From the NCBI GenBank assembly GCA_032622095.1, contig CP136066.1, positions 95,501,319 to 95,565,318 of the forward strand: a stretch of 64,000 nt of DNA. The letters run 5' to 3'. Position 1 is the stretch's first letter; each line of letters starts with the position of its first letter. This stretch comes from Siphonodentalium dalli. Its lineage: Eukaryota > Mollusca > Scaphopoda > Gadilida > Siphonodentaliidae. The position numbers were made by a program, and so were the translations under genes. Below the pieces are notes generated by a model that was given only the letters and a program-made list of their open reading frames with translations, ran no database searches and was not told the DNA's origin. Below are positions 16,596 to 40,177 of this stretch, one piece after another.

Positions 16596-16870
16596 ATTTT
16601 AGGTGTAATCAAAGGACGAAAAGCTCTTTATTCAATATCTCGTGCGTGTGCAAATAAAGCGCCCCTCCCTCTAAAAACTTCCCTTAAACTGTTTGATAAG
16701 TTAATCAAGCCTATACTTCTATATGGCAGTGAATTATGGGCAAGTGAATTAACAATCAAAAATCACGAACGTTATCCGCGTGAGAAACTTCATATCACAC
16801 ATTGCAAACAAATACTTGGAGTCGGTAAATACGCTTCAAACAATGCAGTCAGAGCCGAATTAGGTAGCTA
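16596..16870 (+). pseudogene. LINE reverse transcriptase, C-terminal region, upstream piece
   Basis: Translation in the frame TTA-GGT-GTA (16599) gives a typical post-palm segment of non-LTR retrotransposon RTs. It contains LFDKLIKPILLYGSELW, then KLHITHCKQILGVGKYAS and AVRAELGSY. Known LINEs of the jockey/CR1 type carry (V/I)KPILLYGSE.W followed by F/HCK.ILGV in this order before the C-terminal zinc knuckle. The frame is blocked at 16593-16595 (TAA). At 16870 the homology stops inside the Tyr codon of ELGSY, exactly at the boundary of the 22.6-kb insertion. The same reading frame resumes at 39472. I infer a dead, 5'-truncated LINE that was the insertion target. Confidence 0.85.
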
Positions 16871-17290
16871 CACACTAAATTCAAAGTTGGTAAATTAACG
16901 ATAAAAGTAGTTAAATTTTACTACTTTAGGTAGTTCGTATTCATCCCGCTACCTTGGGTGGTTAATTTTACTACCTGATGGGTAGGTAAAAAATTAAATA
17001 CCTTTGGTAGTTAAAATAACTACATTCGGTAGTTGAAATAACTACCCCCGGGGGCTATTTTAACTACCCAACGGGAGGCAAATTTTTAACTACTTTGGGT
17101 AGGGGGATGAATACGAACTACCCAGTAGTTAATTTTACTACCCGTGGGTGGTTGGAATTTTAACTACCTACGGGTAGTTAATCTGATAACTACTATTGGT
17201 GGGAAAGTTTTCTACCTAGAATGGTTATTCTAACTATTTTAATTGGTAATTCAAAGGTGTCCCATCTAACCACTCCAAGTAGCTATTTTA
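16871..17290. repeat. Left subterminal region, AACTACC/GGTAGTT array
   Basis: About 420 bp with roughly twenty degenerate copies of AACTACC or GGTAGTT on alternating strands, often separated by AATTTT. A stronger internal mirror pairs GGTAGTTCGTATTCATCCC (near 16927) with GGGATGAATACGAACTACCC (near 17103). The matching right-end array is at 39317-39469. Confidence 0.85.
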
Positions 17291-18560
17291 CCTCTAAAGA
17301 TAGTAATGACATGTGGACCACAAAATAAGACAATGCAGAAAATAATTTCAATATTTATTAAAAACAAAACATAAATATTTATATATATAGTTCAGAGCAT
17401 TTGTGCTTTTAGCAAATTGCAATACAAGGTTTCTTACCAGGAATAAGTACATTAGCCTGCACAAAACAATGTCAATTTTGTGAAAATCGATGGATTCTAA
17501 TAGTTGAAAATTTGACCCAATGCCAGGGAATCTCATCAGACTTCAAATGTCTTAAAAGGTCACTAAAACTTATTTCATCCAAATTGATTGTTGCAATCTG
17601 ATTTGTCAATTTTTTTAAAACAGCGATAAACTGAAATGGAGTGTCATTTGACCTCAGACGTCTTTAAAAAGCAAAAATGAGCAATAAAGAGCGTTCCTTT
17701 AAACATATGTAGCAACATTGGACAAAAGTAAAACTAGTAATGCATGGTTAATATTTTGGATAGGTGCTGTGGGCATCAAATTATTTATAAATGGGCTACT
17801 AATCAGCAATAAAGAGCTTTATTATATTCTTAAAACATAGATGTAACTTTGTCAGGAGTTATATTTCAGCTGCTGTTTATCCCAGATACTTAATTATTTA
17901 AATGACTTGAAGGGTCGCAAATAACGCATTCTTAACATTAGCACTGATGCTACCCAGCTAAGGTTGTGCATAAAAAATTGCCCTAGGTCAAGTTTTTTTG
18001 GTTGCTCATATTAGAGTGAATCTGTTTTACCAAGAATCAATAAATATATGTATATATAAAAAAAATGGAAGAACTAAGTGCCATAACTCTGGTAGAAAAG
18101 ATATCTGACAATCCCTACTTTTGAACTCAAATGAGATATTGTTGTGAAAGTTTGTTCATGTTATCATGCCAAAGGTCATATATAACATTACAAAACTGAT
18201 ATACTAAGGGCTATAATTCAGGTAAAATAAATCTTCAAACTCAATTGATATATTCATGTGAAAGGTCCGCATAAAAAATTACTGGTCTTTCACTGGGTCT
18301 CAACTTTATTCCAAAAAAATCACGTATTGGGACGTTTTTATCTATTTTAGAGATTTGTATTTGTTCAAACATATTTATATATATATTAAAAAAAATTCAC
18401 TTTGTGGGCTTTGCAATACTAATGGGAGTGCATGAACTAATGGTTGTATTGTTTATATGCAGTTGTGGACTACACAAGAGTCGATAAATAATTCCAAAGA
18501 ACATAACATGTTCATGTTCAAAATATTGTTTTATAGCTTTAACCAATAATAAAAAATACG
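17291..18560. other. Left body of the insertion, no gene recognised
   Basis: AT-rich with frequent stops on both strands. AATAAAGAGC words recur here and in the dispersed repeat at 4170/24890, but I see no exon. Confidence 0.45.
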
Positions 18561-18666
18561 GAAGCACCCTTCAGACATGATATCAGTCTTCAACCCAGAG
18601 AACATTACGGGCATGGATTAGTATCCCTCGTCACAACTGGGCGGAGCCACTCTCCCGTATCATTCA

Positions 18667-18783
18667 TTACGAGCATCGAGACACCAGGTGCGTGGCATCC
18701 GAAATAGTATTGTAGCCTCTTTCATACCATTTCAGTCGAGTAGAGTCACAACAGCCCTCGCACCTCGCATAGCCATTAGCCAA
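18667..18783 (-). pseudogene. Possible Cys-rich coding trace inside the insertion
   Basis: On the minus strand a 38-codon open stretch reads NGYARCEGCCDSTRLKWYER and ends HLVSRCS at a TAA. A GTAATG donor-like site overlaps the stop. The clustered Cys and charged residues look more protein-like than the surrounding AT-rich DNA. I do not recognise it, and it may be chance. Confidence 0.2.
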
Positions 18784-19202
18784 AAGATAATTTTATAATT
18801 TTGTGTAGTCCACTTGAGGTATCGTTATATGCAGTGAAAGAATATATTAATCACCAAATTTGCCAAAATTGCCTTAGATAATGTTCGGCTTACAAGGAAA
18901 AATACTTGGCATCACCATTTTTTGTATGGGTATCACGTAAATCCACAAAAGCAAAGAGTATAGACAATCATAATTGAGAACGCTCTTGTGTACTGCTTTT
19001 TTAGCCAACAATTGCACATTATTTCATTATATTTAAAATGGATAAAAATAATACCCATATAGTTTGACGAGATACAAGGCTTATTTTTGCTCGAATGTAT
19101 AATTCAGCAAATGGGGGAACTTCGCTAAAGCTCGGTTCCCATTTGGAATTTATTTACTGAATCATACTCGCGAAAATAAACGATGTATCTCATCAACAGT
19201 AT

Positions 19203-19680
19203 TTATGGATATTCTATATTTAACCACTCAATCAACTCATCGATGCGATGCCCGAGAGTGACAACAACTTTCCCCCCTTGTGTCGTCATTCTCTGGGGAT
19301 CAATTCCACCAAGTACAGAATCGCAAACAAGTACTTGTAAGGGCAATTGAACATCATCACCATTATCAAAATGAAACTGTTTCCACATAAATGCGGCCGA
19401 CCTAACCAGCAAGCGAGTCAGATTGTCAGTGATCATCTGACAGGTAGAGAAAACATTCAATACCATATTGGTCAATGACATGGTACCACACGTCATTCGG
19501 AATATGTAGCAATGACTGGCAGTCTAACAAAATGTGTTGTAATTCATGCCAGGAGCATTAATGATATCGTCTAGCTTGTGTGGGTATCGTGCTTTGCTTT
19601 CCCAGTATATACCAAAATCAACAAATAAAATCACAAATGTGGCATCAGATTTCTCCCCAGATGTACCGTTATGAAACTAC
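19203..19680 (-). pseudogene. Decayed coding sequence of unknown function inside the insertion
   Basis: Reading the minus strand from about 19680, three successive frames give protein-like segments that abut. The first has ATFVILFVDFGIYWESKAR and PHKLDDIINAPGMNYNTF, then a stop. The second has SLLHIPNDVWYHVIDQYGIE. The third, a 97-codon frame to the stop at 19203, has LPLQVLVCDSVLGGIDPQ and KVVVTLGHRIDELIEWLN. A TTTCAGTAG acceptor-like site precedes the first. The frame changes suggest two indels in a once-continuous exon. I do not recognise the family; it may be cargo or transposase of the insertion. A transposase identity is not supported by any visible DDE motif. Confidence 0.4.
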
Positions 19681-20612
19681 TGAAATGTGCCAATATTTGG
19701 TATAAAACAAAACAATGAGTATGAGGCTCTTGGGTTTGGGAGAAAAATAATCCATTATGACCTGGGATGTGGGCATAGAAAAATCTTATCTTCGGGGCCA
19801 GCTATTGGGTCCGAACAATCGGTCGAAATATCTTGTCCCTCGGGTGAGATCTTTCCATCCCCACGCCCCAGGTCATGATGGATAATATTATTCTGGTCTC
19901 AACTTAACTTCAGCTGAACACGCACTGCGCCCATAATTTTTTGCATTTCTGTTAAAGTTACAAAGAGCATATATAGTTAATGAAAATGTCCCTGGATTCT
20001 AATCACATGTTCACGGCATGCATGTGTTATCAACTGCTACAGATGACCAATCAGCCATGACATGAGGATACACCTGTTGTGTCTTGTCAATACATACGAA
20101 CGAACAAGTTTTCCATGTGTACATCACCTCCATACACATGTGTATAATCAGTTCTAATTAAAATTAGGCTCTAGAATAAGTTACACATAACAGAGTCTTA
20201 ATGAATATAACTATCAGTCAAATAGCCATCGCTATAAATAGCTTCTGCATACAATTCCTGCTGTATAACATCAACTCACAGTGTTACGATGGACAGAATG
20301 CTATCTCCTGTCACTTTCATTTTGGCGATAAGAAAAACGGGTGCTTACTGTTGCAATTCTTGGAAATGCTTAATTCTATTCTCCTTGATGGGTATTATTG
20401 ATCAATTATGGACTCTTCAAGTATACACACATTAGTGTTAAATTAGTTGTTGTAATTACCAAATTTGTGAACACTGTGAAAATAGCAATGTGACTAGATA
20501 TGACATAATGACAGGAAACTTATTATGCTATTTTAGCTATGTGTCGAAAAACTCTGGATTCGATGAAAATCGTCAATTGACTGATTGGCTTCATCACTTT
20601 ACTGTTAAATGT

Positions 20613-20803
20613 TGTAATAAATTCAAAAAGGCGAGGATGATCCTCCAGGGAGGTAATCTCAATCACTTGAATATCCTAATTTTTAGGATATTCAAGTGAT
20701 TGAGATTACCTCCCTGGAGGATCATCCTGACCATTTTTAGGATATTCAAGTGATTGAGATTACCTCCCTGGAGGATCATCCTCGCCTTTTTGAATTTATT
20801 ACC
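20613..20803. repeat. Triple block: palindrome plus direct repeat
   Basis: A block containing GGATGATCCTCCAGGGAGGT and CAATCACTTGAATATCCT occurs three times. It runs forward at about 20613-20680 and as complement at about 20683-20731 and 20736-20803. The copies are nearly identical, so the structure is young. It looks like a fold-back whose right arm was duplicated. Confidence 0.9.
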
Positions 20804-21734
20804 TCATTACTCAATCACATTAAATATGGCCACGAGCATTTCTCTCACCAGTGTCACACCCGTTGACATCAACTTCCCCACACCCAACGTGTCCCTCACT
20901 ATAGTAATCCATGTTGACAACTTACAAAGGGGAACTAAATGCACACGCACAAATCTGGAACACTAAACCTCAGCACAGCACCTCAGCTCGCAAACAAAGA
21001 GAGAGATAGCGCGGATCCTCATTCTCCGCGAACCCTACCACCAGTAGGCACTAACAAGAAGGACTTTAATTAGTCGCCTCCAATTTATGTTAAATGTTGT
21101 GCTTGTCTGATGCTGATGTAAAGATTCTTGGTGGTAATGGAATTCCAAGATATTTTCCTTAGACTCTTTAATGCATACCGGTAGCTTGTTCAATTTATAT
21201 AATTATATAATACACACGCTTCACACATCTCAATGATATACCCGGTAGTGAAATTAATACACAAAATAATAGAAAAAAATCTTCAAGGTGACATGCAGCA
21301 GTTTTTAGAGTGATCTGGGCCACAAATATTAATGTTCCATGATCCCAAAAAGTGGAAACCCGAAGGTTGTGTTTGTGTAACAACCGCACTTTTCAGTTAG
21401 ATGAGAATCCATCCTATATTTTATGAGTTCAAGGAATACTATTTCACAAGCAGCATATTCACGTCGCACAATAGGCCTATAGCACATAGGGGATAGCCCC
21501 AAAATTGTCTATCAGATTTTTAAAATAATTTTGAGACAGGCGGTGAACTCTTCTTTTACTGGTCAAATCCTATCATTGGCTCTGTATCCAATTATAAGAT
21601 ACACTTTGTAAAAGAATAAATACATGTATCACTTGACTTATCATCTTGCTGAAATATGATATGTGTTGGGAGAAATAAACAGCGATTGCTTTAACCTCAA
21701 TCAGTGATGTCACAAAAATTTGGGGAGATAGGTA

Positions 21735-21965
21735 ATGATGTTTTCGGTCAAAATGCAAAACCTATCTCAAAACATTGACATGTTACGCTGCACATCAGCA
21801 GATAAGCGCATTTATAAAATAGCACGATTGCAGGATATGTTGGCTGACCAAATGGGCAACCAATTAAATTCATTATTTTGGCAAATGATGAAACCAGTTG
21901 CATATGTCACCTTTAACTGTAGATTCAAGATCCAAACATTTTCAACGTATTATTCAGGTTTCTAA
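21735..21965 (+). pseudogene. Possible coding trace
   Basis: A 76-codon ATG-initiated frame contains KRIYKIARLQDMLADQMGNQ and LNSLFWQMMKPVAYVTF. It lies upstream of stronger traces on the same strand at 22320-23605 and could belong to the same dead gene. There is no recognisable family and no splice proof. Confidence 0.2.
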
Positions 21966-22070
21966 ATGTATGCATTCAATATGTGATTACCTGGTAATTT
22001 CAATTATGTCTAAGAACGTTTCATAATTTTATAGCGAACTGCTTGGTTCAGTAAAACGTTTTTAGTTTAG

Positions 22071-22206
22071 TTGTGGTGGATTGATAGTAACATGGTGTGA
22101 CATTGACGACTTCGGGTTTATGTTCAACCAATTCGCAAAGCAATGAGGTTGAACATACACTAGAAGCGGTCAATGTCATGCCATGTTACCGCCAATCCAC
22201 CACAAT
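22071..22206. repeat. Hairpin, about 58-bp arms
   Basis: TTGTGGTGGATTG.(T/C)(A/G)GTAACATGG to GTTCAACC is answered by its complement after a 17-nt spacer (22129-22146). It sits between protein-like traces and interrupts them. Confidence 0.85.
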
Positions 22207-22319
22207 AGCGTATATGTTCTACCAACAGTCCTGGTCATTCACATTAATTTGGCACTTATTCCGAAGAATGATCAGCAGAAAATGTCAAAATCTCCTATAC
22301 CTCTCTCCAACATAAATGA

Positions 22320-23605
22320 CGTCATGAAAAGGCCATCGAGAGACGATGGAAAGGTCTTGGTTTCCGTTATGTTGATGCTCCAGATGTAAACATAGAATAT
22401 GTTGCGCAACTCTTTGATCAAAGACACGGTTTCTTACTGGGAGCGGAACATTGAATGATTTTTAACCTGGTCACCATGTTAAGAGAATTTCCTGCAGTAC
22501 ATACACATGTACATAAGTGCAAACTGTGCGATGCTGAACCTTTAATTCTTAGTACGAACACCAAACTACACTGACTCAAGCTCAGAATCATTTAGGTGCT
22601 TGTTGTGTTGAACTTCTTCTCTGTACTTCCAATGTAGTTCCAAACATGTTTCCGTTATGTTGATGGCTCCAGATGTAAACATGGGATATGTTGCGCGACT
22701 TTCTTACCAACCAAAGATGTGGTTTCTTACTGGAAGCGGAACATTGTATGACTTTCATCCTAGTCACCATGTTAGAGAATTTCCTGCTATACATACACAT
22801 GTACATGGATGCAACCTGTGGGTATGATGTTGAGCCTTTAATTCTTAGTATGAACATCGAATTACACTACCCGAAGCTCAGAGATCGGGATAATATTCTT
22901 CTCTGTAGTTCCAATGTAGTTCCAAACATGTTCCTACCTGCAAATAAGGGTCAAACGAGATGATGTACATGTACATTAATAAAAGTGTTAATGTAGCTCA
23001 GCTTGGACATGAGATATAATTCTCACAGAACATCATGGAATGATGAAGGTGGAAATTTCCAGTGATGGATTGAAGCGTATACCTTCTGTTAAGCAGATTC
23101 ATATATCACACATTGTTCTAGGCCTTTGCCGACCCATTACAACAGGATTGGGTGCCCAAAATTGGTTATAACCAAACCGTAATATTCAGAATTTGTCATG
23201 TTTTTGTACATTAATTATATTTCGGAAAATGCTCAAAGATGTAATTAAATCTAAAACAGCATTGGACGTAACAATAATCAGTGCCATTGTAGCTACATGT
23301 ACATATAACATTAAATACTAACAGAGCATTATTTTTGTAAATATCTGGTGGAATTTCTGAAGATATTTTTGGCATGCCTGCATTATTGATTGGAGTACCT
23401 GTACACAAAAACCGATGTGGCTCTATGTCAGGGTTAATGGAAGAGCTACTGGACATTCGTAAACTAGATGCCAAGATGGTCAAGGGCATAACCCTGGACC
23501 ATTTAGTTTATGAATGTCCGGTAGCGAGTCCAATAAGTTATAACCGACTTAAACAGTTTTATAATATGCAAGGAGAAAGTACATTGATCCAATACATGCA
23601 TAAAT
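22320..23605 (+). pseudogene. Decayed protein-coding gene of unknown family with internal duplication
   Basis: Three protein-like segments occur on one strand. At 22323-22450: KAIERRWKGLGFRYVDAPDV then DQRHGFLLGAEH and a stop. At 22650-22963: a partner copy of the same region with RCGFLLEAEHC, then YDVEPLILSMNIELHYPKL and SSNVVPNMFLPANKG. At 23341-23605: DIFGMPALLIGVPVHKNRCG, SMSGLMEELLDIRKLDAKMV, ITLDHLVYECPVASPISYNR, ending YMHKFQ where repeat family D begins. His/Cys spacing (THVHKCKLC in the first copy) hints at metal binding, but no family is recognised. Stops and frame changes show it is dead. Confidence 0.4.
22330..22935 (+). repeat. Tandem duplication of about 300 bp inside the dead gene
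   Basis: GTTATGTTGATG.CTCCAGATGTAAACAT starts copies near 22365 and 22660. Both end with CCAATGTAGTTCCAAACATG (near 22625 and 22910). The copies differ by indels that shift their frames, so they diverged after coding constraint was lost. Confidence 0.85.
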
Positions 23606-23865
23606 TTCAGGCACGTATGGCATTTTTTCCCTTTCGATCATTTTTTGTACCCACCCACCCCCACCGCCAAATTTGTTTCCATTTTCGGCAGTTTTTCCGA
23701 CCATTTTTTGACACCCACCCCCCCCTTTTAACACTAAAACAGAGATTTGCGGGGGGAAATTCACTGTAAACAGCTGTATATGAATTTCTGTGCATACTAT
23801 TTATCATGGATGTTAACATGGACATGTAAATAGGAATGAGTCATTTTTAGGTTATTCCCCCCCCC
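23605..23865 (+). mobile_element. G-run repeat family D, copy 2
   Basis: TTTCAGGCACGTATGGCATT, the C-rich block, AACACTAAAACAGAGATTTG and AACAGCTGTATATGAATTTC match 10988-11220 almost exactly. This copy lacks the leading G run and starts within the open frame of the dead gene, adding spurious codons to it. Confidence 0.85.
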
Positions 23866-24572
23866 CCGATACATGCTGCTTTTTCTGACAAGGAATTGTA
23901 TTACATAAACAAGGGCGTTTATAAGCAATATGCTGATGATTGATATTTCTTGAATAGAGATCCCCGTGGCGTGGGAGTTCGTAGTGCAAACATTGGGAGA
24001 CATGACCATTCTAGATTACAAAATGACGGTAGGGGTAACAATATCATGAATATAACGAAACATATACAATAAATGGTACATGTAATTATTGCTCATTAGA
24101 TAGTAGCACAAATGATGTGAGCTGTTTTTAAAGCTCATTTGGTTGTGATTTAAGGAACGATTTTTAAGTTATGACCATTGAAATTTCGTCAAATATATAT
24201 GCCAAAAAATTATCAACTTTTTTTCAAAATACGTCTATCCTTTTGTGATATTTCTTTTTGCTCATAATAAGTAGACTAATTGGGGTCAGTTAAGTGGATG
24301 TTTCGTTTCATTTATCACAATTTTAACTATCATTGATTGATTTTATAGAATATAGCCATTTTCAAGGAATTTTGACACGAGTTTGACCATTTAAAAACAA
24401 AATTCTGGGCTTTGCCCCATATGCCATACACCTCAGAAATTCTGATGTAGAATAGTACACAGAAATAGAAAATCAAAATAGGAATTTCTCCATCTCCGGG
24501 TGACAGCTACCTCAGCCACAACACGGTCTAATCAGTAAAGATCACTGGCATATGGAGCCTCACATATTATTA
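23866..24572. other. No gene recognised
   Basis: Contains a C run near 23858-23867 followed by AT-rich sequence with no exon-like frame. Confidence 0.45.
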
Positions 24573-24690
24573 ATTGATATATAAGAGAATGCACTGGCTT
24601 ACAAGGTCATGGTAAATATTGTTAGGCCAATGTATTATCTTGTATTGGCGGGGGAGACTCTTATATAAGAGAATGCATTGGCACAGGATT
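24573..24690 (-). mobile_element. MITE family E hairpin
   Basis: ATATAAGAGAATGCACTGG, CCAATGTATTATCTT and TAAGAGAATGCATTGGCACA match, on the opposite strand, the block at 32547-32665. Confidence 0.75.
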
Positions 24691-24889
24691 TTCCCAACTC
24701 AATATCATCAAATGATAGACCCCCCCCCCTTTACCCTAGATGGGAAGATTCAACAGATCTATCATGTTTGTTGCATAAATTCGCTCCATTGATAGTAGAC
24801 CTTGTCTGTGCAAGAATTTGCTGATGATAATGGGATTTGACATGAAAGTCATCTGATACTCAGTATTATCTGGAGAACATTAAAGGCAA

Positions 24890-25405
24890 GAGCGGCGTTC
24901 GTTGCAGGAATATTTCTATTTGTTCAAATCGCCATCAACGGAAGGAACACCAAAATACATACAATTCCGCTCATATGCCAAACATAATCAGAGCGTAAAT
25001 ATAACATTGTCGTCAAGACGTACGATGGTGTACAAAAACAAGAACCTGCTTGTGTTACAGCAGTTGTGCTTCTGTTTACACAACACAACGTAATTTATTG
25101 GTTAATCACACAAAAATTATATAAACGCTCTTTATTATTTCCATATCGGGAAAAGAGTAACAAATAACGCTCTTTATGTTTACCATATCCGGATCTAAAC
25201 AAAAGTCAGAAAACGTAACTTTTTTTGCTTCTGTTTAATACATAACAAGGGGAAAACATTTACAATAGCATACTGTTTTTGCCATATTTCTGATTGGGAT
25301 AAGAACAAAGTCTGTCTATATTTTACTATTATTTCTGTTTATGGTGGTTTTTGACCGAGGTGAATATTTGAACAGCAAACCCACCTCCAAGGCCGCCCAT
25401 ATCTT
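24890..25405 (+). repeat. Dispersed repeat, copy 2 (partner at 4170-4660)
   Basis: Same block order as the 4170 copy: GTGTTACAGCAG, GGTTAATCACACA, GCTCTTTATGTTTACCAT, CAAAGTCTGTCTAT, GTTTTTGACCG and CCCACCTCCAAGGCCGCCC. The copies are diverged by substitutions and small indels. Confidence 0.75.
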
Positions 25406-26660
25406 CAACTCTTTCTATACCGGTACTTATGTATTTTCCCTAAGTTATGAAAGTATACATTGGAATTTCCTGTTATTAATCTGGAGGTCGGTTCATGAAA
25501 AAATAAGCACATAATAACAGATAATACCGGTACAAAAGAGTTATTTAATTGAAGGACATGTTCACATAATAACTTATAAGTTCCAATAAACCAAAGGTTG
25601 TTTGTTGAACTTATTACCTGTATATTTTCTAATGGAACTACTCGTCAATGAGGATTTAGAATAAAAAGAGTTAAAGCTAGTGATAGTGTGCCTGTCCCAA
25701 TTGTAAAGCATGATAATTAATACTTACTGGATTAAAACTCAAAAATGAATCTCCATAATCTTTTACCAATGGTCTGACCAACTTCTAATGCATACGCTTC
25801 AAGTTAGGGAGAGTGAATTGGTAGTATGAATAAAGCACCTGTGTCCGTTCTCCTGGAAATAACAAATGTCAAAATATTTCACTCTCATCAAAATGTCCCC
25901 TTCAATTCGACACCATATAATTACTACTCTATGAATTTAATATACTATTCACTTTTTTACTATATCCCACTATAAATTCAAAATACTCATTCCCAATTGG
26001 ATGAGGGCATGAGTTTGCCATCTTGACACAATTTCAAGTCATATAATTTCATTGCTGACTGTTTAGAGGTAAGCATGTACCATTTTGCACCCACCTCAAC
26101 TATGTGGGTTCGTTTACCACGCCCTGTAATCGCATATGGATGTGACTGGAGTTGGAAAAAATAGTTAACACCACTGAAAAACGATAAACCTCGTATTTTT
26201 AGAATCAAAAGCTACTTTTGACATCAGTTTACTGGATATTGATGTAGTCATGATTGGGGGTGTAAATATATATTTCAACAAGGTCAAACAAGGGCCGCAA
26301 CTGAGAAAAATGAATGCACAACTCCAGTTGTGTACGGGAATCCCTTAATATCCCCAATATGTGCTATCACCATGCAGAAGGACAAAAACTCTTATTGTTA
26401 GCGCCTGATTTACAAGGTGATACTAGTATGTTCATACAGACAGACTGGTAGATGAATGACAGCCCTTGACTGCATGTATTATTATATGCCCTGAACGTCC
26501 TTCAGGGGTCGGGGCATAATAAATCCACATTCCAGTATACCCATCATTCGCTTCATTAATATGGGTACAGATATTAATATTATATAGATCTGGTTTCTAA
26601 TGGATAGTTGGTCTGAACATGATCAAGGTATTATATACATGTACCGGACTACCGGTACAT
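25406..26660. other. No gene recognised
   Basis: AT-rich. A compact hairpin-like TATGCCCTGAACGTCCTTCA with GGGGCATAATAA near 26487-26521 resembles the tail of the repeat at 29123-29527. No exon. Confidence 0.45.
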
Positions 26661-28726
26661 GTATTTGCCTAATATTAACAGAATTTTTTTTTTCTCGAAC
26701 AAGTACATAAACATACTCAAAATCGGCAAAAATCGGAAAAAGGGAAATTGTTTATTTCCGTGAAATAATTATGGGGAAATTTTATCAAATCATCAATTTA
26801 TGGATTTTCATATAACAAAATCAAATTGACAAATCCTACAAATATCATACATATTTTGTTGTCCTCACTATCATGAATCCAGAACTGAAAACCATTTCAA
26901 GGTTTATTGAGTATTTTTCAAGTTGTGTGCCTCCAAAAACGCGAATTTACCTTATTTCTGAGCCTAAAATTTGAAGAATGAGCCAAATATCATATTTTAT
27001 GGTTAATTATTTAAAAAACTAATGCAAAAGACAGAGATTTTTCCCTGTTTTTGTAATTTCCTCACAAGATAAAACACAAAAGATGATTAATATGTGCACC
27101 TATGGTTAAGAAGAATAAAATATTCTCAAAAAAAATGTGTGTTCCATTGCATGGACTTAGCCAAATTTGCCACTGACACAGAACTCGTGTGATGAAACGC
27201 AATATTTGAGGTCATGTAAATCAATAAATTGATATCCATATGCCCTGCTTTTCTTATTACCTTTTAAGTAATAAGTATACTAGATTGAACAAATTGCAAA
27301 GATATTAACAAACCATTGTTTAAGAAAATCAACTTATGGCCCTTTGAATCCTTGGTCTTAACTTGTTTCCAAAAATGCCATGTTGAGAAATTTTTGTTCA
27401 TTCAAAAAGGTATTTGGGCATAAAGAGAAAAAACAAATGGTGTTTTAGTGCGTAAAATTATTCGAACTTTCCTCCCACAACACTTTAGTTCCTGTTGCGT
27501 TATTAAACAGCTTAATACGTTACTGGACGTTTATTTAGAATGTTATTGCTATGTTGATTAAAAATAATTCCAAAATGACAATTTGACATTTCACTGCCAA
27601 ATTACGACAAAAAGGATTATAGCGCTGTCAATGTATATAAACAAAAAAGTTTTAAGTTACGTATGAAAGAACAATACATGCAGAAGCTGATAATATAATG
27701 TTGTATGATTCAAGATGCTTGATTTTGAAGTTTTTGTTGATATGCTATCCCCTACCCCATGTTTCTGCCATTCAAATTTGTAGTAAATTATCCGAAGTGA
27801 TGAGAGAAATCCAGTGACATTCATTGGTATAACCATTGATATGTTATTTTCTCAACAAAAAACTAATATAAGAAGATAAAATACTTTTACACAATAACTT
27901 TTGTTAATTTTTCTGAATATGCACAAAAACCTTTAAAATATTTACAAAAACGCCCCAAAATAGCATTTTCGGAAAAGAGGCTAGACTAAGAGTTCATGGA
28001 GCCATAATTTAATTTTCTTCACAAATGTATTTAGAAATTCCATCACAATTTGTTCTATCTTGTATTCTTAAAAGGTTACGAGAAAGGCAGAGCATATAGA
28101 TTGTAATTTATTCAGTTACATGACCCCAAATATTGCATTTCATCACACGAGTTCTATGTCAGTGGCAAATTTGGCTAAGTCCATACAATGGAACACACAT
28201 TTTGTTCGAGAATATTTTATTCTTCTTAACCATAGATGCACATAATAATAATTTTTTTTGTTTTATCTAGTGAGGAAAAGCCCTGTATTTTGGGCTCGTT
28301 TTTTTTAGATAATTATTAAACCATAAAATATGACATTTGGCTCATTCTGCTAAATTTAGGCTCCGAAATAAGGTAAATTCCCGTTTTTGAAGTCACACAA
28401 CTCGAAAAATACTCCAAAAATATGGCAATGGTTCTCAGTTCTGTGTTCAGAAAAGTGAGGGTAACAAAATCGGCATGATATTTGTAGGACTTGTGTATTT
28501 GAATTTTTTAAATACGCTAAAAGAAAATCCATAAATGGATGATTTGACCAAAATTTCCCAAATTTATTTAACGAAAATCACCAATTTTCCTTTTTTCCGA
28601 TTTTTGCTGATTTTTAGTATGTTGTTTATGGAGGGTCTATGTACCTATTCCAGCAAAAAAAAAATTCTGTTGCAATTAGTTCTGGGTAAAACCATAAAGG
28701 CACTGGACTAATATTAGACAAATGTT
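26661..28726. mobile_element. 2-kb fold-back element with arms of about 800 bp
   Basis: The left arm (26661 to about 27480) and right arm (about 27880 to 28726) are diverged complements. Anchor pairs include CATGGACTTAGCCAAATTTGCCACTGACA (about 27151) with its complement near 28158. CCTTATTTCTGAGCC (about 26950) pairs near 28365. AATTTTTTTTTTCTCG (about 26682) pairs near 28660. About 400 bp separate the arms. No long open frame exists in either arm, and divergence is roughly a fifth of positions, so it is old. Confidence 0.85.
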
Positions 28727-29122
28727 GTTGAGATACGTCTAAGAAAAAAATGTTTCCGATAATAAATTTCCGGTGATAACAACGATCTAATATCGATAAT
28801 ATATAGAAACATAAGTAATTTGAGTCAAAGATGTATTTTGTAAATGCTCAGGTTAATAGGCTATCTTAAAATCAAAGTTAATAATTTGCTATAAATTCAA
28901 TTTATGACTGGAGCCATAAAATGGCGTAAATTAAATTACGAATTTCCGTGTACAAGACGTAATCAAATTAATTGAGGGATACTGGATTGGTAAATGGCAC
29001 ACACGATCGTTTTAAACATAATGCTGATACGGGGAGAAAACTCAAGCCACTCAGTGACTAGTGACGATACAATCATACAATAACTTAAATGAGTATATGG
29101 GACTAGTATGCATATAATATAA

Positions 29123-29527
29123 CTTTTATAAGTCAAAATAAGTCGAAAATAAGGTGTAATATTACGAAAAACAGTCTGAGCCAATCCCTAGCCGCATCAT
29201 GTAGAGAGGGTATTGTGAGAAGCATGTATACCAAAAATTATTGAAATCGGTTCATATTTGTTAAAGCTATTAAGTCGGACAGAATTTTCTAAGTCAAAAT
29301 AAGTCGAAAAAGAGGCGTAACTTGAAAAAAAAAAGTCGGACCGAACCGCGGAGACATGCGGAGACACCGTCCTAAGGAGATTGCATACAAAAAATTATTG
29401 AAATCGGTTCATAGTTGTTCGAGTTATGAGGTCAGACGGACGGACAGACAAACAGACGGAGTAAGCGTGACGGACAGACGCAGTCAATCCAGTATACCCC
29501 CCATTTTCTTCGAAAGTGGGGGTATAA
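29123..29527 (+). repeat. Tandem ~160-bp repeat ending in a strong hairpin
   Basis: TAAGTCAAAATAAGTCGAAAA and ATTATTGAAATCGGTTCATA recur at about 29125/29290 and 29240/29395. A GACGGACGGACAGACAAACAG tract follows. The end is TATACCCCCCATTTTC, TTC, GAAAGTGGGGGTATA, a near-perfect stem at 29493-29527. I recognise this style of repeat from mollusc genomes but do not assign a family. Confidence 0.7.
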
Positions 29528-30163
29528 TTACTCGACAACGACAATTTGTATTTTTGCATTTGGGTAAATTTGCCATCCGTAACACTACTTCGTACTCAAC
29601 AGACTTTCAAATAATGGAAAAATTGTTACCTTATTCTCCAACTCAGAGACTATAGAAGCCAACAACAACATTTGTGTACAGTATCCCTTTAAACCTTTAG
29701 TTGCCACCTTATCTCTTAGAATCTTACTGACAGCCTAAAAACTTCTGCTTCATCCTTTGAAGATGTAAGTACCTTGAGGGAATGAAAGAATTAGATATTA
29801 TTTTTTTTACGCAAATGACCTGTGGACAGATGCTCGTAGTCTGTTTATATATAACCATGGATATATGCCAGATATAACCGTACAAAAAAAAATACTGTGC
29901 TTTTGACAGTGTATTTATCCATGGCGTGTGTGACTGTGGTTGGTCGTAATCTAGTGTCCGGTGTTATTGTTTTGAAGGTTTATCATGTTCGACTGATGTT
30001 GTTAGCATGGTAATGGGATTAGCGGTTTCTATGTCTTGTCTGGTCAGATGTTATGTTTGAGCTTTGTCTGAAATTAACAAATTTTTATACTAGAATTTGC
30101 GTAACAGGAGCATGAGGAAATCACATGTTGAGTGCATTTAATGGTTTTTAGAGACCGAATATA

Positions 30164-30923
30164 TCTATTATATATTTTGGAAGATCTGTGTGTGTGTGGG
30201 TGTGTGTGTCTGTCTGTCAGTAATCGATGGACTCGAAAATGGCCCAGCCGATTTCGATGAAACTTGGTATGTGGGGGTATTTTCGGGTCAGGACTAACAT
30301 AGGCCTATTAATTTGTCCGTGCGAGGTCAACTTTTCACGTGCCGAGGTCAAATCTGTTTTTACGCCGTTTTGCGCTAATATATTTCAGTTCGGTGCTTAC
30401 AAATCGATTCGAAACAGCGCGAATAATAACATGCCAGTCATAATAATGACACTATGAGAATCTTTCGTGTTTCCTCTTTCCAACGATATATAATATGTAT
30501 GTATCCGTTTTAGTTATCTGCCTCAATTATTAAGAAGAAGTGGTACGATCTTCTATCAGGGTAAAAACAATGCGTAACTTCTATGACGTCGTTAGAGGTC
30601 ATAAAGTTAGATCACGTTAACTCTTCTCCGGCCGATGCATTTGACTGTTTCAGACGTCTTGGCGATATCTCGGGCACCGATGGTAATTTAACTTTACGTT
30701 GAAACTTGATAATTAATGAGCGTGTGTATATGAGGCGCGTTTATATACTTGAGTGGAAATCAAATCGGGTTAAAAGGTCAAATCGGGTAAAACCGGATGG
30801 ATTTCGACGGGTACTTTTGTTCGGGCAGTGTTTTGGACGGGTCAAATCGTGACCCCACTTGACCTTGGCCTTCAAAATAGACAATTCAAGGTCAAAACCG
30901 GACGAAGTCGGGTCACCTTCTAG
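30164..30923 (+). mobile_element. Complete non-autonomous Helitron-like element
   Basis: Inserted precisely between A (30163) and T (30924). It starts TCTATTATATATTTTGGAAG, followed by (GT)n and GATGGACTCGAAAATGGCCC. It ends CCGGACGAAGTCGGG, TCACCTT, CTAG. 5'-TC, a 3' hairpin then CTRR, and insertion between A and T without duplication are Helitron hallmarks. The interior holds CAAATCGGGTAAAACCGGATG words shared with 12390-13130. No Rep/helicase coding is seen. Confidence 0.8.
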
Positions 30924-31440
30924 TATGATATAGAGATAATGAAATCATATATAATCATATATATATACTGCATCCAATTTGGGTTGATATGGGTGACTTT
31001 CATGTAGTTTTGTGGTTATGAGACCACATGCAGGCCTTGTTATTGGCCCCCTGATTTCTGCTCTGTTGTCTTTAAACTTTTTTATATCTTTTGCAACATG
31101 GGTGCCACCAGGATATCTCCAGATTATAATACCGGGCTGACTATTGCAGATCTCCCCAATGGGTGCAGCTAACCCTCATGGACAAGGGGTTGTATCCCCT
31201 CCCTGACGAGATCAAACCCTGTTTTCCAATGAGATCTAATATTGACAATTTCTCATCATCAGTGATGAATGCAAGACCACCCTCTTGGGACGGGGCATCA
31301 GAGTGGGACGTGGGCTGGTTATGCATGGGTCTTAATCCCACCAACTGCAGTCAAACATCACTCAACATTTAGTTGGAAACTTTATACCAAAAATAGGTTG
31401 AAATTGTGGTCATAGATTTTCCAACAATTTATTAGTGACA
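30924..31440. other. Mostly unassigned; weak minus-strand frame 31141-31344
   Basis: A 67-codon minus frame contains FITDDEKLSILDLIGKQGLI and could be exonic, but the plus strand is equally open here and no splice signals decide it. Confidence 0.2.
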
Positions 31441-31659: not shown

Positions 31660-31990
31660 GTTATAATAATGCATAATGTGTTTACGGATGGAACAAGACC
31701 GGAAACTCTGGTATGCATTGACAGGCAAAACCTGTCCTTCCCTATCATTCTGGTCTATCACCATACCAAACCAAATCGGAAATTCGACAACAGACACTTA
31801 TATTGCAAAAACTTTGAACGGACTGAATTTCATAAAGCCGAACAGGGCCCATAACTCTGGTAGGCATCGATGGTCACAACCCATGATATTATGCATATTC
31901 ATTCCCCATTTCTGGTCTGTCACCGTGCCATAGAGCATCAAAATATGACAACCGACTCCCGAGTTACAATGCAAAATGTTTGTATGGTCG
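31660..31990 (+). repeat. 'ataactctggta' repeat, two diverged units
   Basis: CTCTGGTA.GCAT, ATCATTCTGGTCTATCACCAT and AATCGGAAATTCGACAAC in the first unit are answered by CATAACTCTGGTAGGCAT, CATTTCTGGTCTGTCACCGT and ATATGACAACCGACTCC in the second. Confidence 0.6.
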
Positions 31991-32080
31991 GACGGTCAAC
32001 AATATACCGGTACCTGCCAACTAATATCAGGGGATATAATAACCATACATGTATATCTCTGTGTATACCTAACCAAAAAC

Positions 32081-32281: not shown

Positions 32282-32811
32282 CAGGGAAGGATCCAGGGCT
32301 CTTTTGATACCTGTTACAGGTTTGGGCGCCCAAACTCTGGTGGCCTAAATGTCCCCAAATTGCAAGTGGATAGTTTTATTAAAGCTGAATTTTCTATATT
32401 TTGAAGGAAATCTTCTATTATAATTCAACAATATGCAATGCAAATCATCAATATACAGTTGATATAGAGCCTTTATTTGCTTAATCAAGTGTCCAGTGAG
32501 AAATATTTTAACCCTTTCATGACTGGGGTTTCTTGAAATTTTGCAAAAATCCTGTGCCAATGCATTCTCTTATATAAATGAGTGTCTCCCATCTAAGGAG
32601 CCTCGAATATAAAAGATAATACATTGGCCTTTATCTTGACCTTGTAAGCCAGTGCATTTTCTTATGCGGGATCCTTAATGCTGCACCTAAGGAAGGGGGC
32701 GACCCCCTTCCATACCTACCCCCATCTCAGGCCTACGGCCCTCGGGATATGCCTTCTGCATATCATGGTCCCAAAACAGGTGTCCCCAAAAAATCCCTGG
32801 ATCCATCCCTG
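32282..32811. mobile_element. Non-autonomous hAT element with perfect 8-bp duplication
   Basis: Termini CAGGGAAGGATCCAGGG and CCCTGGATCCATCCCTG form a 17-bp inverted repeat with one mismatch. GCTACAGT flanks both sides (32274-32281 and 32812-32819). An 8-bp duplication and CAGGG ends define hAT. The right duplication spans the TA and the first four bases of the MITE at 32816, so the hAT inserted into the edge of that older MITE. The body contains a family E hairpin and no transposase. Confidence 0.92.
32547..32665 (+). mobile_element. MITE family E hairpin nested in the hAT element
   Basis: CCTGTGCCAATGCATTCTCT, AAGATAATACATTGGCC and CTTGTAAGCCAGTGCATT match the 24573-24690 block in reverse. 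Confidence 0.75.
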
Positions 32812-32815
32812 GCTA

Positions 32816-33033
32816 CAGTAATGCCCTATTAAAGTAATCACCATCTTTAAATAACCAGCAGAATTATGGATAACTTTTCAGGATTTAGTTGGAAATATGG
32901 CTTGTTGCCATTCATCGGAAAGCTTACGGCGAGAGCTTTCCGATGAAAGGCAACAAGCCATATTCCGACTAAATCCTGAACGTTACCCATAATTCTGCTT
33001 TGGTTAAGAGGTTGATTACTTAGGGCATTACTG
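32816..33033. mobile_element. MITE family A, intact copy with TA duplication
   Basis: CAGTAATGCCC to GGGCATTACTG with TA at 33034-33035. The left TA (32814-32815) is now also part of the hAT target. The palindromic arms share GGATTTAG.(T/C)GGAAATATGGC and GGCTTGTTGCC.TTCAT. It is the best-preserved member of the family. Confidence 0.9.
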
Positions 33034-33064
33034 TATAATGGGGTCTAGGACTATTTGTGACATA

Positions 33065-33450: not shown

Positions 33451-33452
33451 TA

Positions 33453-34646
33453 TTTTAATGTACCTACATGTACATGCTTTATCATTGTTGTTAGATACAG
33501 GAAACACCTGGAAATACAGTTTGTTTTTCTGATCTGTGTTTACCAATTAAGCATGTTATTGCTCGAGTCTTAATGGTACACAGCAAGAGTTTGCACCAAA
33601 AAAGGATAGTGGAATGGGATTGAAAGGCAGTTAACACAGTTACCGTATTGATGAACGGCTAAAAAAAAACTCAAAAATTTTGAAAAAAAAACATGAGAAA
33701 GGGGGGTGGGCCCCCAAAATTTGAGGATTTTTTTTGCACAAATGGGGTGATGGTTTTCTCGGGGTCTGAATTTTATTTTTTTGGCCCTATATGTGCAATA
33801 TTTTTCCAGACCCCCCTGGTCTGAGGTTATTTTTAGGGTCGGTCGACGTGCGGAAACATGTATCTTTTTTCATTGGCCTAAGTATATATCCACATAGTTT
33901 TTCACAATTTACGTAGATCCGTCCACTGCGCGTTTATATGTTGAAATCAACTGTAAACAATAGAAAGATGGGGAGAGTGTGCACATGCACGTAGCATTGG
34001 AACTGTTTTAATTATCTACTTGGATTAACTGTTATAAAGAATTTTTTTCAACACACAGAAAAAATAGATATGATATGAAGTATAAGATATGAGCTTTGTG
34101 TTCCGCAATGCTGTATAATTTGAATGTTGTGTTGAGTGAACGGCGTGTAAACAATATACTGTAGACACATACTGAGGAAAAATAATTGAAAACAAATTTA
34201 ATCCTTCTTGAAATGTACTTGCAAAGTACAATATTTTGTCCACCTGGCAATTGCACCCAATTTGCCCCAGTACCAGGGACGTGGCAACAGGGTGATTGGG
34301 GGGGGGGAGTATCTTGTTCTCATTGCTTGATTTTCGAACCAGAAATTACAAGTGCCCATTTAGTAGGAAATTTCTATTTTTAGACTAACAGTAGCATATG
34401 TTTCTATGTCATTTTAGCACTGCTGCACGTTTCCAGTACCTGCAAATCATGTATATTGAACTTCCTTCCGTATTCATGTTTCAAAATTAGTTTTTTATCC
34501 AGCCAGAATGCACTTTTGAGATATCAACCCATATATAGAATTTGAGTAGTTTTTAGTACATAATACATGTACCTATGAAAGGGAGAAAAAAAAATATATA
34601 TATATTCAACCTCAATCGTACTAAAATCAATTGTTTTTGTCTTCCA
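33453..34646. other. No gene recognised; possible hAT-like end at 34275
   Basis: Low-complexity A/T and G/C runs (33660-33830). CAGGGACGTGGCAACAGGG at 34275 followed by a G run resembles the terminus at 54687, but no partner end was found. Confidence 0.4.
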
Positions 34647-35028
34647 TTAAAGACATATTATGGACTTGTTTGGGTGCGTGAAGTGACCAGTTAGTATACT
34701 CAGGCATTACGCCAACCTGGGAAAGGTACCATTCTGCTAACTTTCTACTAAATTTCAAAGAAATCAACGAAACCACTTCATAGAAAATATCGTCTGAACT
34801 ACGATCAACTGTAAATATTTACATCTCGATTCGGGACGCAACTATCGACAATAAAAACATACAAATGATTTCTCCATCGAGAGTCATTGCATTGAATTAA
34901 AATAACAGAATGACGATGTGTGTTGTCAATTTGGATTAATATTCGTAAAAAATAACTATGGTACTTTGAGCAAGATTATTCTCTATTTCTATTTGATCAC
35001 CCAACCGAAGTGTTTCACATCACTTTAA
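34647..35028 (+). mobile_element. TTAA-flanked MITE family B, full copy
   Basis: TTAA, then AGACATATTATGGACTTGTT at the left and TGTTTCACATCAC then TTTAA at the right. It is collinear with 45038-45414 throughout. Both TTAA edges are intact. No coding. Confidence 0.85.
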
Positions 35029-36857: not shown

Positions 36858-37112
36858 ATGGCCGCCCCGCCCCCATGGCATGTGTATCGGCTATCGCAAA
36901 ATAATGTTAGGATATTATGGTCTCCCATAACAAGAAAAATAGTTCCTAAGAATGTAAACAATGCAAATGGAGGACATTTTGCCATTATTCAGGATGACAG
37001 TACTATTTTCACAGGCAGGGTATTTGGGAAAGTTCTTGTTTTTCCTCAAAATGATGTCTCCTTGTCTCTAGCCAGATTCTTACAGGACCATTTTGACTGT
37101 TCAGTTTGTTAA
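36858..37112 (+). CDS. Possible first exon or small ORF inside the insertion
   Basis: An ATG in strong context (ATCATGGCC) opens an 84-codon frame beginning MAAPPPWHVYRLSQNNV. It continues HFAIIQDDSTIFTGRVFG and LARFLQDHFDCSVC to a TAA. Its composition is protein-like. A GGGTATTT donor-like site near 37019 could end a first exon earlier. I recognise no family. It could be cargo of the large element or a chance frame. Confidence 0.3.
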   Translation: MAAPPPWHVYRLSQNNVRILWSPITRKIVPKNVNNANGGHFAIIQDDSTIFTGRVFGKVLVFPQNDVSLSLARFLQDHFDCSVC

Positions 37113-37982
37113 CCATTGGAACTGGAGAAACGCCGTTTGGGGACATGATTTTTTGTCACTCTACTTGGAAGTAGCCAAGGATATGCCACGATTTCGCATC
37201 TAAAATAAAACAGTGCTTGATAATATTTTTTGGCTTGCAACATTGTCGTGAGCATGCACAATTCAACTACTGGTTACTTCCTTTATCGATAATGGAAATT
37301 TTTCCACTTACGACAGCTGCTTACGATTGAATCGTGGTCGTCTGAACGTTCACCAATTGACTGTTTTAACTTTTAGCCCAATCGTTGAATCGGGCCATTA
37401 TATATCGATCCGTTGTTTACCCAGAACTGTTTATGTACAGTGACTGTGGTTGGACACACAAAATTTTTCTTCTCACATTAATCATTACTAATAAAAAAGA
37501 CACTGACACTTTACTAATAGTAGGCCTAATACTATTATTTTTAGGAAATCTACCTTTCCAATATTCGAGGTACATGTATCACCCATGATCACTTCATAAT
37601 TGGACGTTATATGTCATATTTCCTATAAAAACCTCATGCATATGTGTTCATACGATAGTACAAAAGAAACTTACCATGGGAACGAATGCAATGTCATATT
37701 TTAATCATCTAAATCCAACAGAGAGAAGTTCCGACCGCGTGCATGGTCCGGGCGGATACAAGACATTTCGTACCTGAACGTTTCGTACCATCTGGTACCA
37801 TCTGGTCGTTTCGTAGCGTACTGCCAGAGGCAGAAAGACGTGGAACCTTGCTATTTCCACTGGAGTGACTGGACAGTTATCGAGAAAAGTCCGCCGTTAA
37901 AGTTCGGAATATTTTCAAACAGAGTTTAAACAACGATCACGTGGCATGCAGTTTAACCAATCAGGAATACGAACCGTTTAAC
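37113..37982. other. No gene recognised
   Basis: Contains a small duplication GTACCATCTGG (about 37787 and 37797). No exon-like frame. Confidence 0.45.
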
Positions 37983-39313
37983 ACGAACATGACATTTGGA
38001 ACTTATTCCCGACCCCAAATACCACCAAGAATCACCCCGACCCCACCCACCACCCCAGGGGGTGTTTCTATGTGGTATTTGGGGTGGGCCACCCACTCAT
38101 GCCGTCAAATCGGTCGAAATCCTTGCCGTTCTCGAGAATGGTCCATACCCCATTTTCACCCCTCGGGGTGGCACCCCCGGGGTGATGGTGGGGTCGGGGT
38201 GTTTCTATGTGGTATTTGGGGCCGGCCACCCACCCATGGCGTCAAATCGGTCGAAATCCTTACCGTTCTCGAAAATTGTCCATATCCCAATTTTCACCCC
38301 CTCGGGGTGGCACCCCGGGGGTGATGGGCGGGGGTCGGGGTGTTTCTAGGTGGTATTTGGGCCCGGCCACCCACACATTCCGTCAACTCGGTCGAAATCC
38401 TTACCGTTCTCGAAAATTGTCCATATCCCCATTTTCACCCCCTCGCGGGGGGGGGGGCACACTGGGGGTGATGGGTGGGGGTCGGGGTGTTTCTTGGTGA
38501 TATTTGGGGCCGGCCACCCACCCATGCCGTCAAATCGGTCGAAATCCTTACCGTTCTCGAAAATTGTCCATATCCCAATTTTCACCCCCTCGGGGTGGCA
38601 CCCTCCGGGGTGATGGGTGTGGGGTCGGGGTGTTTCTAGGTGGTATTTGGGGCCGGCCACCCACCCATGCCGTCAACTCGGTCGAAATCCTTACCGTTCT
38701 CGAAAATTGTCCATATCCCCATTTTCACCCCCTCGCGGGGGGGGGGGACACACTGGGGGTGATGGGTGGGGGTCGGGGTGTTTCTTGGTGATATTTGGGG
38801 CCGGCCACCCACCCATGCCGTCAAATCGGTCGAAATCCTTACCGTTCTCGAAAATTGTCCATATCCCAATTTTCACCCCCTCGGGGTGGCACCCTCCGGG
38901 GTGATGGGTGGGGGGTCGGGGTGTTTCTATGTGGTATTTGGGGCCGGCCACCCACCCATGCCGTCAACTCGGTCGAAATCCTTACCGTTCTCGAAAATTG
39001 TCCATATCCCAATTTTCACCCCCTCAGGGTGGCACCCCGGGGTTGATGGGTGGGGGTCGGGGTGTTTCTAGGTGGTATTTGGGGCCGGCCACCCACCCAT
39101 GCCGTCAACTCGGTCGAAATCCTTACCGTTCTCGAAAATTGTCCATATCCCCATTTTCACCCCCTCGGGGTGGCACCCCCGGGGGTGATGGTGGGGGTCG
39201 GGGTGTTTCTTGGTGGTATTTGGGGCCGGCCTCCCACCCATGCCCTGAAATCGGCCGAAAGCCACATTTTTGAAAATAAAGAATAGGGAATAAGTTCCAA
39301 ATGTCATGTTCGT
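37983..39313. mobile_element. TIR-bounded element containing a 9-unit satellite array
   Basis: CGAACATGACATTTGGAACT then TATTCCC at the left is mirrored exactly at the right end (39288-39313). Between them are nine units of 137-148 bp, each with TCGGTCGAAATCCTTACCGT and a C-rich TTTTCACCCCCTCGGGGTGG block. Unit anchors fall at 38111, 38248, 38389, 38536, 38679, 38827, 38970, 39111 and 39252. TCAACTCGG and TCAAATCGG variants alternate with 143/148 spacing, a dimeric higher-order pattern. Stop-poor GC-rich units leave several frames open on both strands, which are not genes. Confidence 0.85.
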
Positions 39314-39316
39314 CCA

Positions 39317-39469
39317 TTTAACTACCTATGTAAGAATCTTTGCTACCTAATCAGTATTTAAAATACCAGCTCCAGGTAGCTAAAATGACTAGGAAAAGTA
39401 GCTAAAAAGACTAGGAGAGTAGTGAAAAAATTTTAACTACCCAAATCTATCTACTTTTTTTTTAGTGTG
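39317..39469. repeat. Right subterminal region of the 22.6-kb insertion
   Basis: TTAACTACCTATG, GCTACCTAATC, AGGTAGCTAAAATGAC, AGTAGCTAAA, TTTTAACTACCCAAA and a final TTTTTTTTAGTGTG. The words and spacing match the left end at 16871-17290 but are fewer. Confidence 0.8.
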
Positions 39470-39471
39470 TA

Positions 39472-40177
39472 CCCGTTATATATTGACGCTTTGTGTAGAA
39501 TGGCTTCATATGCGGTTAAAATCTCATCCAGTTGTACCAGTGGCATATTAAATGATGCAATGCGCGAACAGCGCAGCGGGGTAGCTGGGAATTCGATATT
39601 CAAAAGTCTGGAGTCATTTGGCTTGACTATACCCTCCGACATTACTAACAACAAGCCTCTAATTAACAAGCTTCTAAAGTCATTTAAATGCCAGCTCAGA
39701 GAAAATCACACTGAAAATTTCAGAACAAGTATGCGCGATGGTGTTTCAAAAACTGGTAATAATAAATTAAGAACATATCGACTTTTTAAAAGAGATATTG
39801 TCCTAGAACCCTATCTCTTAAATACAGCGTCGCTAGGTGACCGCTCAGCATTTACACGTCTAAGAATAAGTAATCATTCTCTCGCCATTGAAAAGGGTCG
39901 TCACGCCCAACCACCGATTCCTTTAGCCAGAAGATTATGTGTTATGTGTAATGACGAAGCCATCGACGATGAGAGGCATTTCCTAATTGATTGTCCAACA
40001 TTTCTTCCTATACGGAATGAACTCATTAAAATTATGGGTGACAATTTTATCAATTTTCGATTGATGAGTAGATTGGACCAACTCACACATATATTAGCCA
40101 ATGGCACAGCTCAGATATGCTCCCAAATCTGCAACGTAGTCAAGCGGTTATTCGAAGCCAGATCACAGCTAAACTAG
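39472..40177 (+). pseudogene. LINE reverse transcriptase, C-terminal region, downstream piece
   Basis: Open for 235 codons from the insertion edge to TAG at 40175-40177. It starts PLYIDALCRMASYAVKI, the expected continuation of RAELGSY at 16870. It then carries AFTRLRISNHSLAIEKGRH and a zinc-knuckle CVMCNDEAIDDERHFLIDCP (C-x2-C-x8-H-x4-C), which closes most jockey/CR1-type ORF2 proteins. It ends RLFEARSQLN. Joined to 16596-16870 minus the insertion and one TA, the frame is continuous over 327 codons including the stop. I see no stop within this piece. Confidence 0.9.

Follow-up and report, generated by a model that had tools for sequence, protein, structure and literature searches.

A 22.6-kb DNA transposon with no recognisable gene, probably moved in trans, interrupts a LINE copy in the scaphopod Siphonodentalium dalli

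Introduction

The CMCT lineages of DNA transposons have CA..TG ends and generate target duplications of 2–5 bp, according to the accessible part of their description (PMC12730594). Two large elements can be set beside the one reported here: Tgmt*, a 20.5-kb CACTA transposon of soybean with short inverted repeats and asymmetric subterminal repeats (PMC2613891, in excerpt), and the EnSpm families of a red alga, which a review of giant transposons gives as 16–20 kb long with 4–5 open reading frames (ORFs) (PMC6431247, in excerpt). Here we describe a transposon of similar size in which we recognise no gene, the giant transposon, which lies within a copy of a long interspersed nuclear element (LINE). 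It was found in a window of 64,000 nucleotides (C6:95501319-95565318) of the Siphonodentalium dalli assembly, which comprises 2.23 Gb in nine contigs.

Our reading, to which we give a probability of roughly 0.78, is that a giant non-autonomous transposon of the cut-and-paste type, moved in trans by a transposase that is likely of the CMC group, split the LINE. As an event this is ordinary transposition. Its unusual features are the size of the gene-less element, its recent spread in many copies, the similar length of a copy from an older subfamily, and a pyrimidine–purine (YR) target.

Results

The interrupted LINE copy

The coding frame of the LINE halts at position 16870 of the window and picks up again at 39472. 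The features of the interrupted copy are as follows.

16610-16870, plus strand: 5′ piece of the LINE ORF, downstream of the reverse transcriptase (RT) domain (alignment start in 10/10 copies; RVT_1 lies upstream in an intact relative)
16869-16870, no strand: target site duplication TA, left copy (empty-site comparison)
39470-39471, no strand: target site duplication TA, right copy (empty-site comparison)
39472-40177, plus strand: 3′ piece of the LINE ORF, up to its natural stop (homology on to at least 40333)
Empty-site sequence expected of an allele without the insert: AGCTACCCG

An earlier note on this DNA had placed both boundaries of the insertion to the base and proposed aligning uninterrupted LINE copies of the genome across the junction. 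Among 7378 candidate places homologous to the LINE, 150 were scored, and ten were fetched for their high identity and long open frames. All ten are uninterrupted and align without gaps over the 60-bp join, with 2–4 substitutions each; they read AGCTA[C/T]CCG at the join, and the nearest of them (L010) is 98.3% identical to the window copy over 1127 bp. Because these copies run gap-free across the join, the insert is 16871-39469 with a duplicated TA, as the note had placed it. Since they also supply the exact empty site, the target duplication is certain.

Excision of 16871-39469 and one TA joins 16596-16870 to 39472-40177 and restores the predicted frame of 981 nt, with 327 codons and a single stop at the very end. 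The frame is open throughout, but in every one of the ten copies the LINE homology starts only at 16610-16611, so the first five codons, from 16596, are not LINE. At the other end the homology extends beyond the stop and reaches at least 40333, the limit of the fetched relative. The same holds in part for the description of the locus as a split RT frame. The LINE ORF is indeed broken, but the break lies outside the RT domain: in an intact relative RVT_1 (E 1.4e-40) covers residues 386–640 of a 741-residue stretch, the last 86 residues of which match the window LINE piece, and it ends about 15 residues earlier, which places the split region just downstream of the domain. The two window pieces themselves gave no Pfam domain at E ≤ 0.01, and the window LINE is apparently a 5′-truncated copy.

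The empty-site comparison, together with the occurrence of the same insert elsewhere with target duplications of its own, supports the proposal of a single 22.6-kb insertion into an older LINE copy, later than that copy's own integration. The exact join in ten of ten comparisons and an insert with the same termini at many sites likewise uphold the claim that the two LINE pieces are not independent copies.

Ends and target sites

The insert is a DNA transposon with fixed termini.

16871-39469, plus strand: the giant transposon of 22,599 bp, in which no coding capacity is recognisable (end matches, collinear copies, negative six-frame Pfam search)
16871-16879, plus strand: left terminal inverted repeat CACACTAAA (end comparison)
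39461-39469, minus strand: right terminal inverted repeat TTTAGTGTG (end comparison)
16871-17270, no strand: left subterminal region rich in GTAGTT/AACTAC (motif count)
39271-39469, no strand: right subterminal region, strict motif count 2 (motif count)

The left 532 bp recur at 98–100% identity at all 40 scored places (459 candidates), and so do the right 242 bp (40 of 40 scored, 1253 candidates). The exact left-end 30-mer occurs 42 times in the genome, against 0 for its reversed control. A 19.9-kb query, for which 2 of 58,304 candidates were scored, was uninformative on copy number.

Both ends were read in 20 paired copies besides that of the window, and the 9-bp terminal inverted repeats CACACTAAA...TTTAGTGTG are present in all 21. 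An exact 2-bp target duplication flanks each of the 20 other copies (TA 12, CA 6, TG 2). With the window copy the counts become TA 13, CA 6 and TG 2, all of them YR. The target is thus a YR dinucleotide and not strictly TA, and the positions next to it show no strong preference. Terminal inverted repeats (TIRs) and a duplication of fixed length, 2 bp in 21 of 21, are what is expected of a cut-and-paste-type TIR transposon. In the left subterminal region GTAGTT/AACTAC occurs 13 times in 400 bp, compared with an interior mean of 0.12 and a maximum of 2 per 200 bp.

Copies in the genome

For each of 52 left ends, the closest right end on its strand was sought within 60 kb. A partner was found for 33 of them among the 43 right-end positions listed (two of which are estimated to within some tens of bases), at distances of about 14.5–41.7 kb with a median of 22.8 kb; the other 19 have no partner among those 43. 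One of the pairs is probably spurious, as the right end assigned to the left end at C3:57225813 also serves another left end. Left ends also stand 2.3–12.5 kb apart on the same strand at C3:57225813/57237242, C6:74460619/74473080 and C2:169556146/169558427; such places may be nested, tandem or truncated giants.

Six further copies, B to G, were fetched whole. Copies B–F keep the backbone of the window copy in order, B with several gaps of 0.8–5.5 kb. Copy G keeps about 2.6 kb on the left and about 2 kb on the right, has lost about 17.7 kb and carries an 8.9-kb foreign insert. In pairwise comparison the window copy and B–F differ by 0.62–1.11% substitutions with no close pairs, as in a recent star-like burst. 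The family was thus recently active and has left dozens of nearly identical giant copies across the genome, with a backbone of about 23 kb that diverges by about 1%.

Subfamilies

A pattern made of the terminal repeat and two subterminal motifs revealed related subfamilies, with 284 genomic places against 14 for the reversed control. We sorted 100 of the 284 by eye into left-end types I (16; the type of the window), II (16), III (14) and IV (36), right ends (6) and others (12). The one type II copy read matches the window with 97–98% identity along about 6 kb, while two copies each of types III and IV reach about 74–91% in the blocks that can be aligned. One type II left end lies 22.8 kb from its right end. 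Of type IV, an older subfamily, one copy is complete and measures 22,248 bp with a TA duplication; roughly one third of it can be aligned with the window element. The subfamilies thus have their ends in common and, for this type II pair and this type IV copy, their size as well, but much of the interior is not shared.

Shorter forms exist as well, since one of two loci with a variant end holds a relative of 5.18 kb in the opposite orientation, flanked by a TA duplication. This relative, into which other DNA is nested, is apparently derived from the giant by strong shortening.

Search for genes in the insert

No ORF of the insert exceeds 151 aa, and the longest runs into a minisatellite; ORFs of 150 and 142 aa match no Pfam family. 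In the six other copies, all ORFs of at least 170 aa lie in the minisatellite or in nested elements. A six-frame Pfam search of the window insert, with stops read as X, gave no match at E ≤ 0.05, and a 2.4-kb segment that the window copy lacks gave one chance-level match (APOBEC4_like, E 0.035, below the cut-off). At a control EnSpm locus the identical read-through method detects PF02992 and DUF4218. Three EnSpm proteins of this genome found nothing by tblastn in the fetched giant copies.

A consistent coding signature between the subfamilies was sought as well and rejected on phase counts, pN/pS (the ratio of nonsynonymous to synonymous differences) and tblastn. The conserved blocks span several frames simultaneously, with frameshifts and in-frame stops. 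Phase counts, pN/pS over the first 7 kb, and tblastn of 431 open frames (at least 30 aa) of the type IV copy against copy C gave no consistent coding frame, although short exons are possible.

A proposed transposase in trans

A transposase encoded elsewhere in the genome would recognise only the ends of the giant, and its large gene-less interior would grow by taking up other repeats. The CAC...GTG ends, the short inverted repeats, the 2-bp duplication and the subterminal repeats, which are dense at the left end and weak at the right, would make the CMC group (EnSpm/CACTA, Mirage, Chapaev and relatives) the likeliest source. Candidate genes of this kind are present: 78 of 122 candidates in the genome match PF02992, many with open frames of 900–1016 aa. 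At C7:18.86-23.97 Mb, twelve PF02992 matches whose scores are almost the same, and all of which contain an internal TAG, probably represent a local expansion of an EnSpm-like gene.

Several observations weigh against this account. No transposase was tied to the ends of the giant. With 100 of the 284 pattern places listed, the nearest of the 78 PF02992 matches is 120 kb from any of the 132 end positions compared. Around three intact EnSpm genes, taken with some 1.8–2.7 kb per side, there are neither CAC..GTG ends nor CACACTAAA, and no EnSpm ends were found within about 7 kb each. The 2-bp duplication is inside the CMC range of 2–5 bp but differs from the canonical 3 bp of EnSpm, and the two motifs in 200 bp of the right subterminal region equal the interior maximum. 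The six-frame Pfam search, which covered the window copy and the 2.4 kb that it lacks, misses genes of unknown families and very short exons, and about 200 bp (near 31868-32067) went unread in two minus frames.

The comparison between subfamilies adds to these points. Some stretches have uneven phase counts and some open segments a pN/pS of 0.2–0.45, the longest of them at 22679-22960 (94 codons, 0.32 and 0.45, no stops). The median of 0.76 (140 comparisons, first 7 kb) was weighed both against a transposase in trans and against a hidden gene. We do not read the low-pN/pS segments as genes, as they are few and short and the comparators are related. Since the nearest PF02992 match is 120 kb off and the three fetched EnSpm genes lack these ends, we treat the CMC assignment as a lead, with membership unproven.

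Alternative explanations

The alternative that survives best is that the giants are autonomous, with an intron-rich or fast-evolving transposase gene of an unknown family inside the 23-kb backbone. Such a gene would fit the type II pair of 22.8 kb and the type IV copy of 22.2 kb, which keep their size though most of the type IV interior cannot be aligned, and a precedent exists in the 20.5-kb soybean CACTA, most of which is occupied by a 14.6-kb gene (PMC2613891, in the part accessible). Low pN/pS in open segments such as 22679-22960 points the same way. We nevertheless consider a hidden gene unlikely, given ORFs of at most 151 aa in the insert, the confinement of those of at least 170 aa in other copies to minisatellite or nested elements, a Pfam search of the insert that returned nothing at E ≤ 0.05 (with the single chance-level APOBEC4_like match in the lacking 2.4 kb), and conserved blocks that run through several frames with frameshifts and in-frame stops.

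A Tc1/mariner-type element with a TA target is improbable. Strict use of TA is a defining trait of that group, and although TA is the commonest duplication here (13/21), CA or TG makes up the remaining 8/21.

A self-synthesising element of the Maverick/Polinton kind, typically of 15–25 kb, resembles the giant in size only, and we regard it as highly implausible. Polintons have long inverted repeats and a 5–6 bp duplication, here replaced by 9-bp repeats and 2 bp, and they carry genes for polymerase B, an integrase and capsid proteins, whereas the six frames of the window copy hold no Pfam domain at E ≤ 0.05.

Finally, although the join rests on one assembly, without reads, it is scarcely credible that two independent LINE fragments flank unrelated DNA by chance or through misassembly, given a base-exact join with a TA duplication in 10/10 comparisons, an insert with identical termini at many other sites, and a misassembly that would need to end on transposon termini at both sides.

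Interior of the window copy and nested DNA

The interior of the window copy holds the following features.

26810-28513, no strand: large imperfect palindrome with arms 26810-27268 and 28067-28513, in the shared backbone (repeat search, copy alignment)
30165-30924, no strand: 760-bp nested piece, in the window copy only among those compared (the site is spanned by C, D, E and F, all of which lack the piece)
About 32282-32811, no strand: 530-bp nested element with inverted ends CAGGGAAGGATCC / CAGGGATGGATCC and 8-bp duplication GCTACAGT (bounds approximate)
34205-34206, no strand: site without the ~2.42 kb that copies B–F carry (copy alignment)
38059-39260, plus strand: 141-bp minisatellite, 8.4 units (matches in other copies stop at differing units)

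The palindrome is probably an older nested foldback element. The 530-bp element, a candidate hAT-like element by its 8-bp duplication, is also present in copy E, with 99.6% identity and the same flanks, and is absent in B, C, D and F. It was probably already aboard the giant when the window insertion took place; in the simplest account it would have entered one giant, which then moved on carrying it.

The segment of about 2.42 kb missing at 34205 is present in five of five informative copies, with a length of 2.26–2.43 kb that is larger in E and F through nested elements. For the 760-bp piece, copies B and G are uninformative, as they lack the wider region around it. Both the absence of the 2.42 kb and the 760-bp piece may have arisen before or after the window insertion. 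The 760-bp piece resembles window repeats at 11967-13233 (D9, D13). The same dispersed repeat family (window 11967-13233 and 30165-30924) sits in and beside the older-subfamily type IV copy (L072, L076, L077), at about 7.1–7.6 kb and 22.3–26.3 kb.

The extra DNA of the longest copies was considered as an autonomous core and rejected, as it looks like nested foreign elements in F, E and G. In copy F (L065-L068, C3:271215777-271252817) an 11.55-kb element lies at about 19137-30686 with a 5-bp duplication, ACCAG. It has a perfect inverted repeat of at least 40 bp (CAGGTCGGGC...), a PHD-like ORF and an ORF of 708 residues whose similarity to DUF6589 is weak (E 2.3e-5) and falls below Pfam's cut-off. 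A keyword literature search for DUF6589 together with transposon gave no match, and the element is possibly of an unnamed transposon lineage. Copy E (L060-L064, C9:59539832-59581496) has a nested insertion of about 12.5 kb that is bounded by short inverted repeats (AAAG[T/G]GATAGTACT) and apparently targeted TTAA, and near it a 5.2-kb piece resembling a long terminal repeat (LTR) element, with 476-bp direct repeats. The nested element of copy G (L069-L070, C1:228230086-228244566; about 2436-11345) consists of two 4.25-kb direct units, 99.95% identical, and has 188-bp inverted repeats and repeated ORFs of 174 and 180 aa with no Pfam match.

Elsewhere in the window, a 41-bp unit is repeated in tandem about 25 times (95% matches) at 59520-60553, and several blocks of 121–123-bp arrays lie at 61188-63575. 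Searched against Rfam at gathering thresholds, the window yielded no match.

Discussion

Non-autonomous DNA transposons usually become short. By contrast, the recently mobile copies described here span about 14.5–41.7 kb with no recognisable gene, and the complete copy of the older subfamily is of nearly equal length. The family can serve as a test of how much passive load a transposase can move and whether length is selected. It is also a test of genome enlargement, with about 23 kb gained per added copy. The 530-bp nested element, apparently carried along by transposition, shows a route by which the interior can grow.

We tentatively raise the further possibility of a new DNA transposon lineage with a YR target in which success belongs to gene-less elements of about 22 kb. 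The idea, doubtful as it is, comes from a length that stays at 22–23 kb (type II pair, type IV copy) despite the largely replaced type IV interior, with no shrinkage to miniature elements. If it is true, length or some function of the non-coding interior would be favoured, and the mobilising enzyme would be of an undescribed type.

A keyword search of the open-licence literature, in the parts accessible, found no gene-less counterpart in animals, which is not proof of absence. Among described systems, the giant resembles the CMC/CMCT group (EnSpm/CACTA, Mirage, Chapaev, Transib, Plavaka, ESTA) in its CA..TG ends, here CAC..GTG, and in a duplication within 2–5 bp, as far as the accessible part of PMC12730594 describes them. 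It differs in that no transposase was found in it and in its YR duplication, compared with 3 bp in canonical EnSpm and TA in ESTA. Subterminal repeats are a further likeness to CACTA elements (PMC2613891, in excerpt). The large retrotransposon derivatives (LARDs) share with it a large passive interior between functional ends, but they are LTR retroelements that rarely exceed 10 kb (PMC6431247, from the excerpt available), whereas the giant is a larger DNA transposon with inverted repeats. Tgmt* is similar to the giant in length and likewise combines short inverted repeats with asymmetric subterminal ones; the soybean element, however, encodes its own transposase in a large gene and duplicates 3 bp at its target (PMC2613891), while the giant has no recognisable gene and duplicates 2 bp.

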